From Candidatus Kuenenia stuttgartensis (GTDB taxonomy: Bacteria > Planctomycetota > Planctomycetia > Planctomycetales > Planctomycetaceae), in contig CAMDPK010000009.1 in NCBI GenBank assembly GCA_945904015.1, forward strand, positions 1-64,000: 64,000 nt of DNA, in the 5' to 3' direction. The notes beneath the pieces are model-generated. The model was not told the DNA's origin and did not search any database. It saw only the letters and a program-made list of their open reading frames with translations. The position numbers were made by a program, and so were the translations under genes. Of the stretch, positions 32,401-63,146 are shown in pieces (the first letter of the stretch is position 1; every line of letters starts with the position of its first letter).

Positions 32401-32827
32401 CGAGTGACTCCCTGACGTTGCGAGAAGCGCAGCCGGACACGTTCAAGAAAAGATCATCGAACGACGCTGCAACTCCATCATGTTGGCCCGCGTGGACACA
32501 GCATGTCCTCGCTTGTCCAAAATACCCGCCTGTTGGGGGGTGGGAAAGGTGGCTCCGGCAAATTTCTCCACGTTGCCGTCCGGGATGCCACGACACAGCG
32601 GGAACGCCGATATCGACACGTTGAGAGGTTTTGTCAGTCCCGCCTGTCGCAGCGCTTGGCGAAGTCCGATTGGCAGCATTCCAGAGACTCGCACCAAATT
32701 TGGCTCAAGTCCCGGTTTCATCAATCACAGCAAAAAACCGGGGGCATGCTGTTGACTCCGGATGCGTCCACCACGATTGGAGGATCGCTCGTTGCCGCTT
32801 GTCAGAGCCACCTGTAGATTGCTGTGC
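32401..32827. other. Divergent intergenic region
   Basis: This region separates the start of giant gene 2 (minus) from the radical SAM gene (plus), so it should hold promoters in both directions. A hairpin with 8-bp arms CCCGGTTT (32711-32718) and AAACCGGG (32735-32742) lies in it. No small gene with convincing composition was found. An in-frame ATG at 32762 upstream of the chosen radical SAM start is considered less likely. Confidence 0.5.
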
Positions 32828-34648
32828 ATGTCGCTGCGTCGTTCGATTCAACTCCTGCAACTTCCGATCCCGCAACCCGGTTTAGAGCCGGCCAAGGGAA
32901 ACGTGCCGCTCGCTGCCGGCTACCTGAAGATGTACGCGCGACGGCGAGGGTTGGAGGAGTTCTATGACATCGAACTCTTCGCGCCGCGGCTAGCCAACAC
33001 GCTGAGCGATTGCGGGCTTGTCGAGGAAATCCTGGCTCGCGATCCGTGGATGGTCGGGTTCACCTGCTACTTGTGGAACATCGACCGGACGCTGTGGATT
33101 GCGTCTCGGCTGAAGGAACGGCGTCCCGATCTGCGGATCATCATCGGCGGCCCGGAAATCACCGCCGATAACGCCTGGGTCTTGCAGCATCCAGCGATCG
33201 ACTTCGCCGCGATCGGCGAGGGAGAACAAACCTTCGCCGAACTGCTGACCGCGCTGCGGTTCAACAATCACCCGCGCGAGCCGATCGCCGGGCTGTACGT
33301 TTCGATGGGCACCGTGCTCGGACCGCTGCCGGGATTTCGTCAGCCGTTGGCGAGTCTCGACGAAATCAGTTCGCCGTACCTTGAGGGAATCCTCGACGCG
33401 GCTGACGAGGAGATGCTGCTGCTCGAAACGATTCGCGGCTGCATCTTCAAGTGCAAGTTCTGCTACTACCCCAAGAGCTACGACGACCTGTATTTCGTCT
33501 CGCGCGAGAAGATCATCGCCAACCTGCAATACGCGCGGGAGCGAGGGGTCAAAGAAGTCGTGCTGCTCGACCCGACATTGAATCAAGCCCGCAATTTCGC
33601 GGAGTTCGTGCGATTGCTCGCCGACCAGAATCCCGACCGTCAGTGGCAATACTTCGGCGAACTTCGAGCCGAGGGACTCACCACCGACATCGCGAAACTG
33701 CTCCGTGAGGCCAACTTCAACGAGGTCGAAATCGGCCTGCAATCCATCGACCCGTTGGCGATGGAACTGATGGACCGCAAGAACAACATGAAGTCCTTCG
33801 AGCGTGGCGTCGGTGCGATGCTGGACATCGGGATCAAAGTCAAAGTCGATCTGATCATCGGCCTCCCCGGCGACACCCCCGACTCGGTTCGTCGCAGCAT
33901 GCACTACCTGCGTGACACCGGGTTGTACTCCAGCGTGCAGGTTTTCAATCTCGCGATTCTGCCCGGAACCGCCTTTCGCCAAGAGGCGCAGATGCACGGC
34001 CTGCAATACCAGTCGCGATCGCCGTACTACGTCCTCAAGACGCCGACCATCGACCTGCGGACGATGTACGAATTGATGGAAGAAGCCGAAGAAATCTTCG
34101 ACACGGAATTCGACGCACTCCCGTCACCGGCCGAACGCCGGGAGCCGGTGGCCGACAGCCGCGATACCGTTTTCTTCAGCCATTCGGTGAACTTCGACAA
34201 CCCTGTACGGACATCGCTCCCTTCCGCCGCACAGCGCAGCGGCGCGTTTGAATTGCTCTTGCAAGCTGCCGACTTTCGGCAACACCGCGACGAAGCCTGC
34301 GGTCTGATCCGGCAGTTGTTGGAGGACAACCCGCACTCGACGCTCCGCATCGTGCTCGAACCGAACGGCGATCCGGCCTCGTTGACGATGTCCTTCCTGC
34401 AAGCGATCCGCACCGCTTGTTTGCAAGACCCATCGTATCTCGATCGCTTCTACTCAATGCAGCTCGGCCGCCCGAAGGGAGCGAAACACATCGTCATCCG
34501 GTTGCCATGGGTCGCCCGCAATCAGGCCGGGCTTGATTGGATCGACGACGTCGGCCAGTTCGCCTCGATCGTCTGGACCGGCGAGAACATCCCGTCGGAA
34601 GACGACCTGAGCGAAGAACTCGAAGCCCACGAGTTCGTGCTGGCGTGA
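32828..34648 (+). CDS. B12-binding-type radical SAM protein
   Basis: This is a radical SAM enzyme of the cobalamin-binding type (BchE/PA4928-like architecture). The N-terminal region (about 10-170) has a Rossmann-like B12-binding fold lacking an obvious DxHxxG motif. The radical SAM core follows with C205, C209 and C212 in CIFKCKFCYY, which ligate a 4Fe-4S cluster. A GLPGDTPDS segment and EIGLQS are typical of the core barrel. A C-terminal region of about 150 residues has no recognised family. The start is placed at MSLRRSIQLLQLP because it leads directly into the conserved N-terminus; an upstream ATG at 32762 would add 22 unlikely residues. It stands alone, divergent from the giant gene. The substrate is unknown. 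Confidence 0.78.
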   Translation: MSLRRSIQLLQLPIPQPGLEPAKGNVPLAAGYLKMYARRRGLEEFYDIELFAPRLANTLSDCGLVEEILARDPWMVGFTCYLWNIDRTLWIASRLKERRPDLRIIIGGPEITADNAWVLQHPAIDFAAIGEGEQTFAELLTALRFNNHPREPIAGLYVSMGTVLGPLPGFRQPLASLDEISSPYLEGILDAADEEMLLLETIRGCIFKCKFCYYPKSYDDLYFVSREKIIANLQYARERGVKEVVLLDPTLNQARNFAEFVRLLADQNPDRQWQYFGELRAEGLTTDIAKLLREANFNEVEIGLQSIDPLAMELMDRKNNMKSFERGVGAMLDIGIKVKVDLIIGLPGDTPDSVRRSMHYLRDTGLYSSVQVFNLAILPGTAFRQEAQMHGLQYQSRSPYYVLKTPTIDLRTMYELMEEAEEIFDTEFDALPSPAERREPVADSRDTVFFSHSVNFDNPVRTSLPSAAQRSGAFELLLQAADFRQHRDEACGLIRQLLEDNPHSTLRIVLEPNGDPASLTMSFLQAIRTACLQDPSYLDRFYSMQLGRPKGAKHIVIRLPWVARNQAGLDWIDDVGQFASIVWTGENIPSEDDLSEELEAHEFVLA

Positions 34649-34653
34649 GCGAA

Positions 34654-34707
34654 GTAGAACGGACGCCTACGTCCGTTCGATTGACCGGACGTAGGCGTCC
34701 GGTCTAC
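34654..34707. repeat. REP-like inverted pair, family B
   Basis: GTAG (34654) and CTAC (to 34707) bound two hairpins. The left is AACGGAC-GCCTAC-GTCCGTT and the right is ACCGGAC-GTAGGC-GTCCGGT. The arms differ at one base pair (A-T versus C-G), and both sides of each stem changed, so the folding unit is the single arm. It fills the convergent gap between the radical SAM gene and ribD. The CTA of the right foot provides the TAG stop of ribD. Confidence 0.85.
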
Positions 34708-35876
34708 GACACATGACCGCTCACTCGCCCCGACAGTAGCACGTCACCGTCGAGCACCTCGACCCGCTGGTCGTCCAGCAGCCGCGCCTTCGACAGCGGA
34801 TCGCAGCCCTGGCCGCCGACTGGGCCGGGGGCCGTTTGGCCGCCGATCAATTTCAAACCAACGAAGACCTGCACTTCGTCGATCAAATCGAGATCGGCGA
34901 ACGCTCCCAAGATCGCCGCGCCCCCCTCGATCAGGACGTTCGTCATGGCTCGACGTCCCAATTCGGCCAGCACCGCGAGCGGTTCGACCGGCCGAATCTT
35001 TTTGAGATCTTTGGCGGTTGCGGGCGCAGCGGTCTGATCCGCCTCGGCACCCAACACGCAGACCTCCGCACCCGCCGCACGCAAGCGAGCGACATTTTCA
35101 GTGGGAGCATCCGGGCCGGCGAGGATCAGCAGCGGAGCGTCGTTCGCCGTTCGCACCAATTGCGAATCCGTCCGCAGCGACGCGATCGAATCGAGCACCA
35201 CGCGAGTCGCGACTCGCGGCCCCGCTGGCCGAGCGGTCAGCAGCGGATCGTCGCGGCGTGCAGTCTCGGCTCCGACGACGATCGCGTCCATCCGGCCGCG
35301 CAATTGGTGAGCGACGGCTCGCGAGGATTCATTGCTGATCCACTTCGAGTCCCCCGAGCCGGTCGCGATCTTGCCGTCCCAGCTCATCGCCCATTTGGCG
35401 ATCACCCACGGAAGACCGGTCGTCAGTCGCTTGGCGAACGGCGCGGTGAGCCGCTTCGCCTCCGCTTCGAGCATTCCGACCTCGACCTCGACGCCGGCCG
35501 CTCGCAGCTCGGCGATGCCGCCTCCGGCAACTTGCGGGTTCGGATCAGTTCGCCCAACGACAACCTTGCGGATTCCGGCCGCGAGGATCGCTTGCGAACA
35601 AGGGGGCGTCTTGCCGAAGTGACAGCACGGCTCCAACGACACGAACAGCGTCGCGTCCTTCAGCTTCTTTTTGCGGCGACGTTTCGTCGCATCAGCGATC
35701 GCCTCGACCTCCGCGTGCGGCCCGCCGAACTGCTGGTGGAAGCCCTCACCCAGCAGACTGAGCGATTCATCGACGAGCACCGCGCCGACCATCGGATTCG
35801 GCTCAACGAACCCCTGCCCACGAGCCGCCAGCTCGAAGGCACGTCGCATCACGGAATGTCGGTCGGGGAATCGCAT
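34704..35876 (-). CDS. ribD: Bifunctional riboflavin biosynthesis protein RibD
   Basis: It catalyses two steps of riboflavin synthesis: deamination of the pyrimidine product of GTP cyclohydrolase II, then NADPH-dependent reduction of its ribose side chain. The N-terminal deaminase domain shows H54-A-E56 in GGPHAEVEA and zinc ligands C84 and C93 in LEPCCHFGKTPPC. The reductase domain (about 150-385) shows KWAMSWDGKIAT and NVLIEGGAAILGAF. Its 390 residues are close to the family norm. The TAG stop is supplied by the CTAC end of the REP-like pair, so the last residues may have been altered by that element. It is separated from the upstream SEC-C gene by a GA-rich inverted repeat. Confidence 0.95.
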   Translation of the reverse strand: MRFPDRHSVMRRAFELAARGQGFVEPNPMVGAVLVDESLSLLGEGFHQQFGGPHAEVEAIADATKRRRKKKLKDATLFVSLEPCCHFGKTPPCSQAILAAGIRKVVVGRTDPNPQVAGGGIAELRAAGVEVEVGMLEAEAKRLTAPFAKRLTTGLPWVIAKWAMSWDGKIATGSGDSKWISNESSRAVAHQLRGRMDAIVVGAETARRDDPLLTARPAGPRVATRVVLDSIASLRTDSQLVRTANDAPLLILAGPDAPTENVARLRAAGAEVCVLGAEADQTAAPATAKDLKKIRPVEPLAVLAELGRRAMTNVLIEGGAAILGAFADLDLIDEVQVFVGLKLIGGQTAPGPVGGQGCDPLSKARLLDDQRVEVLDGDVLLSGRVSGHVS

Positions 35877-41937: not shown

Positions 41938-42007
41938 GTAGGATGGGCACTCTTGCCCGTCCCTCTTTCCCTCGATGAATGGGGACGGGCAAGAGTGCCC
42001 ATCCTAC
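41938..42007. repeat. REP-like inverted pair, family D
   Basis: GTAG at 41938-41941 and CTAC ending at 42007 bound two 26-base arms that are exact reverse complements. Each arm folds as GATGGGCA-CTCT-TGCCCGTC (one G-T wobble). It lies just upstream of the purH start, between purH and the minus-strand gene at 42052. Confidence 0.85.
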
Positions 42008-50928: not shown

Positions 50929-51022
50929 AACGTAGCCGTCATTGCTCCGCGTGACGAGCTGAGTGCTTCACTGCCGCGGATTGGCGACTCGGCTCATCAC
51001 GCGGAGCAATGACGGCTACGTT
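50929..51022. repeat. REP-like inverted pair, family A, second copy
   Basis: This is the same family as 639-750. The left arm is AACGTAGCCGTCATTGCTCC and on (50929-50959), and its complement (50992-51022) ends GGCTACGTT. The core CTCCGCGTGA is shared. It sits at the convergent sixA/xdhC junction, and the TAG stop of xdhC (51016-51018) is read from its CTAC foot. Confidence 0.8.
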
Positions 51023-52167
51023 GGCGATACCGCCAACGACTCCAACAAGCTGGGGCGGCGATAGCGTTCGGGAATCTCGCCGAGATTTCGATGCGCGATC
51101 AGTTCCGCCACGATACTGACGGCAATCTCCGGCACGGTCTGCGAACCGATGTCGAGGCCCAGCGGGGCGTACACGCGAGACAGCGCTTCGCGCGAGATGC
51201 CGTCGCGCAACAAATCTTCAAAGATCATTTTGATCTTCCGCTGGCTGCCGATCAGGCCGACGTATCGAGCCGGTGTTTCGGCGAGGTGATACAACGCTTG
51301 TTCGTCGTGCTGATGTCCTCGAGTCACGATCAAGCAGTAGGTGTTGTGGTCGATGTCGAGCCCGCTGAGCGACGCATCGATCTCGCCAACGATCAGCCGC
51401 TTCGCCTGCGGGAAGCGCTCGGCGTTGCAGTACTGCTCGCGATCATCGACAGCCCAGACGTCGAAGTCGCATGCAGCAGCCAGTTCGCCAACTCGTTGAC
51501 CGACGTGTCCGGCTCCGACGATGACCAATCGGCAGCGACGCAGGTGCGGCAAGAACGACACGCCCCCCGCGACGTACGGTCGAGGCCGCTGCGACAACGG
51601 TCGCAAGTGCTGACCAATCGTCGGCGGAAGTAGACCGGACGCCCACGTCCGGTCAATGGGATCGGTATCAGCCGTCCGGACGTATGCGTCCGGACTACGG
51701 CTTGCGGTCGCGATCACCTCGCCAGAGTCGTTGAGCAAAAAACGATCGGCGGCTTGTCCGTCCGCCTTCTCCGGGTCGAGGATCACGGCCTCGGTGCAAC
51801 CTTGGTCGGTCGCGAGCAGCTCCAGCAGTCGGCGGTAATAGCCGAACTCCGCTTCACCGCGCACGGGATCGACCAGCATTTTCATCCGGCCGCCACAGAT
51901 CAGTCCATCATCCCAGCCGTAATCGCTGTCGAGATTGAACGTCAGCAATTCGGTTTGACCCGCATCGAGCAATCTTAATGCCCGCCGTTTGACCTCTGCT
52001 TCGACGCATCCACCTCCCAGCGTGCCGACCTGCGAGCCATCCGGGAAGACGAGCATCGTCGCTCCCGCCTTTTGCGGCGTAGACCCGCGAGTCTCGACGA
52101 GCGCGGTGTACGCGACCGGCTGATGACGTGAAACCGCTTCGCTTAGTTGTTGAAGAACGTGGTGCAT
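51016..52167 (-). CDS. XdhC/CoxI-family protein carrying an in-frame REP-like insert
   Basis: This is an XdhC-type maturation factor for molybdenum hydroxylases (sulfuration or insertion of molybdopterin in xanthine dehydrogenase relatives). The N-terminal XdhC/CoxI domain has VETRGSTPQKAGATMLVF, GTLGGGCVEAEV and GWDDGLICGG. The C-terminal Rossmann domain has LVIVGAGHVGQRVGELA and VTRGHQHDEQAL, GLIGSQRKI. Between them, about residues 157-180 (RSPDAYVRTADTDP and following) are encoded by a family B REP-like pair. The start MHHVLQQLSEAVSR is chosen because upstream codons have no homology pattern. No molybdenum enzyme gene is in the window. Confidence 0.88.
   Translation of the reverse strand: MHHVLQQLSEAVSRHQPVAYTALVETRGSTPQKAGATMLVFPDGSQVGTLGGGCVEAEVKRRALRLLDAGQTELLTFNLDSDYGWDDGLICGGRMKMLVDPVRGEAEFGYYRRLLELLATDQGCTEAVILDPEKADGQAADRFLLNDSGEVIATASRSPDAYVRTADTDPIDRTWASGLLPPTIGQHLRPLSQRPRPYVAGGVSFLPHLRRCRLVIVGAGHVGQRVGELAAACDFDVWAVDDREQYCNAERFPQAKRLIVGEIDASLSGLDIDHNTYCLIVTRGHQHDEQALYHLAETPARYVGLIGSQRKIKMIFEDLLRDGISREALSRVYAPLGLDIGSQTVPEIAVSIVAELIAHRNLGEIPERYRRPSLLESLAVSPT
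51630..51698. repeat. REP-like inverted pair, family B, inside xdhC
   Basis: GTAG (51630) and CTAC (to 51698) bound two hairpins, ACCGGAC-GCCCAC-GTCCGGT and TCCGGAC-GTATGC-GTCCGGA. The outer pair changes A-T to T-A on both sides, so pairing within each arm is maintained. It is read in frame as part of the interdomain linker of xdhC and belongs to the same family as 34654-34707. Confidence 0.85.
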
Positions 52168-52234
52168 GACGAATCGGATGCTCCTGCGAATGTCACTTCG
52201 CCTCTTCGCGAGGCAACTGGACGGCATTCCAAAC

Positions 52235-52270
52235 AAAAAGGTCTTCTCACGCGAGCGAGAAGACCTTTTT
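52235..52270 (-). terminator. Rho-independent terminator (possibly bidirectional)
   Basis: A 14-bp perfect stem, AAAAAGGTCTTCTC (52235-52248) with GAGAAGACCTTTTT (52257-52270), has an 8-base loop and T-rich tracts on both strands. It lies after the small minus-strand open frame at 52315-52512 and upstream of xdhC, so it would insulate xdhC. Confidence 0.85.
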
Positions 52271-53884: not shown

Positions 53885-53950
53885 GTAGCCACGCTCGCCA
53901 AGAGCGTGGGAAAACTGGTGAGTACCCACGCTCTTGGCGAGCGTGGCTAC
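53885..53950. repeat. REP-like inverted pair, family F
   Basis: GTAG (53885) and CTAC (to 53950) bound two 26-base arms that are exact complements. Each arm folds as CCACGCTC-GCCAA-GAGCGTGG. It lies between the ABC permease and eboE-like genes, both on the minus strand. Confidence 0.85.
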
Positions 53951-56148: not shown

Positions 56149-56261
56149 GTAGGGTGGGACCAGCTCGCTTCGAGCGCCGGCCCACTTTCCCCGCGTTCAT
56201 TGATGGCGTTGACCATTCGCTGGTGGGCCGGCGCGGCGAAGCGCCGCTGGTCCCACCCTAC
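56149..56261. repeat. REP-like inverted pair, family G
   Basis: GTAG (56149) and CTAC (to 56261) bound arms of about 37-39 bases beginning GTAGGGTGGGACCAG. The distal stem of the left arm is CTCG-CTT-CGAG. In the right arm (read inward) it is CGGCG-CTT-CGCCG, a change that keeps pairing in each arm although the two arms no longer match there. It lies in the divergent gap between leuD and the DUF1501 gene. Confidence 0.8.
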
Positions 56262-63060: not shown

Positions 63061-63146
63061 GTAGGTCAGGCTTCCCAGCCTGACACGTTTGTCTTTCGCG
63101 AATCACCGTCTGTCGCCGCAGAGTCAGGCTGGGAAGCCTAGCCTAC
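63061..63146. repeat. REP-like inverted pair, family I
   Basis: GTAG (63061) and CTAC (to 63146) bound 24-base arms that are complementary at 22 positions. The left arm folds as GTCAGGCT-TCCC-AGCCTGAC with a perfect 8-bp stem; the right arm has a slightly decayed stem. It is placed inside the oxidase operon between subunits III and IV. Confidence 0.85.

Follow-up and report, generated by a model that had tools for sequence, protein, structure and literature searches.

This locus raises the question of how a pair of REP sequences came to lie within the reading frame of xdhC and how the gene could tolerate it. The element occupies positions 51630-51698 of the 64-kb window, that is, the whole stretch of DNA analysed here, and is built from two 24-nt REPs and a spacer of 21 nt (24 + 21 + 24 nt = 69 bp). 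REP 1 (51630-51653, + strand, GTAGACCGGACGCCCACGTCCGGT) reads GTAG-AC-CGGACG-CCCA-CGTCCG-GT. The spacer (51654-51674, no strand, CAATGGGATCGGTATCAGCCG) is followed by the inverted REP 2 (51675-51698, - strand), which also measures 24 nt, reads GTAG-TC-CGGACG-CATA-CGTCCG-GA on the - strand and appears on the + strand as TCCGGACGTATGCGTCCGGACTAC with a CTAC end. With a 5' GTAG followed by a short stem-loop, the element agrees with the GTAG REP superfamily. Folded as single-stranded DNA, the element reaches -24.4 kcal/mol (z = -5.85 in comparison to shuffles). The preliminary description of a 69-base element, a multiple of three without a stop in the frame read, was exact in coordinates and length, and the XdhC ORF is open throughout the element.

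That the frame is open depends on the loop of one REP. Out of 100 REP loops, 82 read CCTA and 12 CCCA; REP 1 of xdhC carries CCCA, which gives TGGG on the coding (-) strand, and the same applies to the sister species G005. The common CCTA loop (TAGG on the coding strand) would create ACG TAG, an in-frame stop, in the frame in which xdhC reads the second half of the element, so that the frame is open because the loop is CCCA/TGGG. The CCCA loop in this copy agrees with a filter by which only insertions compatible with the frame are retained; alternatively, the loop could have changed after insertion.

The gene itself (xdhC, 51016-52167, - strand) encodes an XdhC_CoxI domain and an XdhC Rossmann domain in 383 amino acids, counted from a conserved ATG at 52167; the listed ORF (51016-52236, - strand) begins with a TTG at 52236. 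Using the numbering from the conserved ATG, the REP pair is read on the - strand as residues 157-180 (RSPDAYVRTADTDPIDRTWASGLL), located between Pfam XdhC_CoxI and XdhC_C. The proposed link of about 23 translated residues between the domains was therefore right as to frame and position, with translation itself being what we infer. In an AlphaFold2 model based on 31 sequences (mean pLDDT 86.7), residues 159-178 form the main segment with a pLDDT below 50 and are predicted to be disordered; the closest solved structures are 2we7/2we8 and 3on5. Outside the element, a dN of 0.006 and a dS of 0.295 in comparison to G005 reveal strong purifying selection, which identifies xdhC as a working gene. The gene ends within a second REP pair of another GTAG family (50932-51019, no strand; GTAGCCGTCATTGCTCCGCGTGACG..., written as GTAGCCGTCATTGCTCCGCGTGACGAG...CTCATCACGCGGAGCAATGACGGCTAC), whose GTAG represents the TAG stop codon of xdhC. 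In relatives this TAG is kept, together with remnants of the same or of other repeats, and a further copy of this REP-pair family is located at 639-750 of the window.

Comparison of orthologues within the genus separates filled from empty alleles of xdhC. In the sister species G005 (98% amino-acid identity), the same REP pair occupies the same position and the spacer is identical, and the second hairpin shows a mismatch. In eight further species (G006, G009, G003, G011, G002, G010, G007 and G004), the linker is short and free of insert and palindrome; it reads GEVIATASQDGTTKPLPSSIGQ in the first group of these species. Insert-free orthologues thus exist, as the reading of an in-frame GTAG-type REP pair in the linker had anticipated, and the check for orthologues with a linker of the same length and sequence free of palindromic DNA yielded none. 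A gap in the orthologues at residues 157-180 had also been predicted with a size of about 23 residues; the gap is there, but it spans 16 residues, since about 21 nt of the earlier linker have been lost: 69 nt came in, and the net gain relative to G006, G009, G003 and G011 is 48 nt. With insert-free homologues and a preserved frame, the xdhC element belongs to the intragenic in-frame REPs.

The CGGACG stem defines a family with many members. We searched for exact matches, a procedure that favors undecayed REPs in the sample, and found 177 matches (89+88) to GTAGNNCGGACGN{2,6}CGTCCG in the 7.43-Mb source genome and 0+0 in the reversed control. The copies mostly occur as inverted doublets, whose spacers measure -1 to 43 nt and have a different sequence at each site; 43 distinct inverted pairs in the sampled loci correspond to the doublet arrangement of REPINs. 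The genus appears to consist of uncultivated planctomycete MAGs, and 11 of its 12 genomes contain the family with 2 to 177 copies each; it is absent from the other genera searched in the same family or class, with the exception of one stray match in G039, a genome of the same class. Within the window, a sister pair with a 6-nt spacer lies at 34654-34707 (no strand) between convergent genes, downstream of the gene at 32762-34648. This pair had been noted as intergenic; it is real, but not purely intergenic, because the convergent gene 34704-35876 (- strand), which is RibD-like by sequence, takes its TAG stop from the terminal CTAC of the pair. GTAG ends of REPs repeatedly coincide with the TAG stop of the upstream gene (L209, L161, L216 and 34704 in the window).

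We sampled 61 sites of this family on contigs C1-C67, of which 49 were judged to lie outside genes, in line with the mostly extragenic location of the GTAG REP superfamily. The remaining 12 are intragenic and all are read through in frame, which answers the suggested scan for further in-frame copies with a positive result. No gene split by a REP pair was found among the sampled sites, the extragenic calls being based on ORFs and partial orthologue comparison only. Besides xdhC, the hosts include a Cys/Met PLP enzyme (insert in the catalytic domain, where it separates the PLP-lysine region from the following conserved block), a sarcosine-oxidase-like FAD enzyme (insert flanked by two aligned blocks), a SpoU rRNA methylase, an ATP-grasp protein, an ABC ATPase-permease, a DUF1553 protein, a GSDH-like protein and four others. 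Ten of the 12 sites share one frame, encoding V-x-R-T-P-T-S...P-D-V-G-V-R-x-T or a decayed form of it. At ten of the in-gene sites besides xdhC, every orthologous allele compared is in frame, with a dN/dS of the flanks well below 1. Empty alleles are exemplified by two other genes (SAK[NSSPSKPA]DLG and EPN[PPPSADAPK]FPR), and wherever empty orthologues are available the net gains are divisible by three, e.g. +27, +30 or +57/+60 nt. The bases gained or lost at the target differ from site to site, so that insertion follows no single rule and there is no constant target duplication. One candidate, L203, was dropped from the in-gene sites as its reading resembles an intergenic stretch before a new start.

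Some in-gene pairs (L195 3033-3082 and L193 2995-3044) are identical or nearly identical between species; for L195 and G002, 51/51 nt are identical at a flank dS of 0.30, where silent sites would predict more changes. Such pairs could reflect gene conversion, a recent transfer or constraint.

Based on these data, we consider it highly probable that the 69-bp element is a genus-confined REP pair, which was inserted in frame into the xdhC linker and is tolerated there as a disordered stretch. According to this proposal, a REPIN, or head-to-head GTAG dimer, whose family is restricted to a single planctomycete genus would have entered the linker in the ancestor of the source species and G005, replacing about 21 nt of older linker. 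The frame would have survived because the net change was +48 nt, and the loop variant CCCA/TGGG in one REP copy would have avoided a stop in this frame. The gene may have remained functional since the 24 extra residues are disordered and lie between two domains, whereas selection would remove copies that cause a frameshift or land in a folded core. Transposition was presumably carried out by a RAYT-like Y1 transposase, and the insert is probably translated into a selectively neutral peptide.

Alternatively, the peptide might have been co-opted, so that REP-encoded residues are useful to XdhC, for example for binding or domain spacing, and are kept by protein-level selection. Retention of the insert in both species that have it would agree with this idea, as would the genus-wide persistence of in-frame pairs in other genes such as the Cys/Met PLP enzyme, where all five relatives compared carry the insert in varying states of decay. 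However, dN and dS are about equal inside the xdhC element (relative to G005, with 4 changes only), the stretch is predicted to be disordered, unrelated proteins carry the same type of peptide and eight relatives manage without it, which makes co-option very unlikely. Just as unlikely is that the pair is kept for a role of the DNA or RNA, such as an mRNA hairpin or a site for gyrase or a nucleoid protein, its coding being incidental. Some in-gene pairs indeed vary less than silent sites predict (L195 versus G002), but gene conversion among many copies or recent insertion would lead to the same pattern. Besides, hairpins have decayed in shared copies (the xdhC REP of G005; the PLP enzyme of G003, G009 and G011), and many orthologues lack the pairs altogether. 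A third view takes the spacer as pre-existing host DNA with two REPs inserted on either side (2 x 24 = 48 nt). The xdhC net gain of exactly 48 nt and a linker which, after subtraction of the REPs, has the length found in relatives both agree with this view, but at the long-spacer sites L149, L220 and L153 the spacer sequence is missing from the empty alleles. This refutes it as a general rule; at xdhC alone it could still hold, which we regard as very unlikely. Finally, an ordinary fast-evolving linker with an accidental palindromic look, compatible as such with the varying linker length of XdhC between genera, is refuted by the match to a 177-copy family with GTAG ends (control 0) and by the empty orthologues.

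Counting against the favored reading, no cognate transposase was found by neighbourhood. In the standard model, GTAG REPs are mobilised by a RAYT-like Y1 transposase. The source genome contains 10 hits to PF01797, 8 of them over the cut-off. No REP of the CGGACG-stem family was detected around these 10 hits (at least 1.5 kb where the contig allows), and none of this REP lies near the examined RAYT genes of relatives, so that an arrangement of the REPtron type was not encountered in this set. For the source genome, the lack of a REP-flanked RAYT is not final because the genome is 91.7% complete. The palindromes beside some of its PF01797 genes belong to other families. RAYT-like genes of the source genome adjoin such other palindromes (e.g. 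AACCCGAAGCGTCAGCGAGGGCGAACG) at L352 2886-3096, L347 1981-2419 and L348 3380-3638, and a sequence related to RAYT-adjacent palindromes is present in an ABC-transporter linker of G006 (L313).

Our data also allow insights into the use of the same linkers by other palindrome families. The linker at L200 contains a CGGACG-stem REP pair in the source genome, a GGGCAGGTT-type pair (VGQVSNLPGEDWQVEILPHE) in G011, a GTAGGGTGGGAC-type insert in G003 and G009 and a cousin REP (CTTGGACGCCCTCGTCCGAG) in G006. Since the protein segment in the source genome still ends with WQVENLPHE, its sequence reads as a CGGACG-stem pair inserted into an older GGGCAGGTT-type pair. At L195 (G009), L225, L145 (G003) and L192 (G006), the same linker is occupied by single or cousin elements of different types, and the L201 linker of G002 contains an AT-rich repeat. 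The first three of these other types are repeat families within the genus, with GGGCANGTT as the commonest and fewer copies of the others. This commonest family accounts for 315 hairpins in the source genome (GGGCANGTT-loop-AACNTGCCC, with paired changes at N), including two likely in-gene cases; it is seemingly read in frame as VGQVFNLP...GQVENLPH at L190 3724-3798 and L200 2038-2121. A search for GTAG..CTAC pairs in genes over 353 kb of the source genome identified no clear in-frame pair outside the CGGACG-stem family.

In total, the 64-kb window holds 8 GTAG...CTAC pairs of six families, compared to 0 in shuffles. Four more of these inverted pairs, from four families, are located at 41938-42007, 53885-53950, 56149-56261 and 63061-63146.

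From the sequence comparison, the shared linkers may be the outcome of few permissive linkers together with REP-in-REP events. A more far-reaching idea, which is conceivable but rather doubtful, is that some linkers in this genus are reusable landing sites, where families enter, replace each other or nest at the same codons with the frame kept, thereby rewriting the linkers repeatedly.

The locus provides a clean case outside Rickettsia of mobile palindromes lengthening working proteins, documented by orthologues with and without the insert from about a dozen related genomes. Three questions thereby become testable: whether such inserts are neutral, what the insertion reaction does to its target and for what reason several families strike the same linkers. 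In addition, programs for gene calling and structure prediction encounter such inserts as unexplained linkers with the signature VxRTPTSxxPDVGVRxT.

GTAG and CGTC REPs within genes have been described before; dimers or grouped repeats that encode 20-30 residues made up more than half of these inserts (Di Nocera et al., 2013; PMC3733652). The same study reports GTAG ends that supply TAG stops, two Xanthomonas recB genes with REPs at roughly the same position, planctomycete REP families including R. baltica and an intragenic example in uvrA of Opitutus terrae. An in-frame GTAG-type REP, which the preliminary description implied to be new, had therefore already been catalogued, planctomycete families included. 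The xdhC element shares with these intragenic dimers the GTAG end, the size of the stem-loop, the head-to-head arrangement, the in-frame insert of 20-30 residues and the TAG stops of neighbouring genes. In contrast, it belongs to another family with a CGGACG stem that is restricted to one genus, and for this family we show insert-free orthologues and the re-use of linkers by other families. With the Rickettsia RPEs, to which it had been likened, it has in common that in-frame palindromic repeats occur in genes of unrelated function and are tolerated in proteins. However, RPE-4 and RPE-6 have been equated with CGTC elements (PMC3733652), so that the published description sets them apart from the GTAG-tagged xdhC element of another phylum. 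REPINs were defined in Pseudomonas fluorescens, where they are linked to RAYTs and nearly all extragenic, with 14/1067 16-mers overlapping genes (Bertels and Rainey, 2011; PMC3116915). The inverted REP doublet is the unit in both systems, whereas in the CGGACG-stem family about a fifth of the sampled sites lie in genes, the spacers are unique to each site and no RAYT neighbour was found. In consequence, the xdhC element represents a new family and adds a well-documented example to a phenomenon already known; its novelty is lower than first estimated, and the re-use of linkers by several families is the part worth following.
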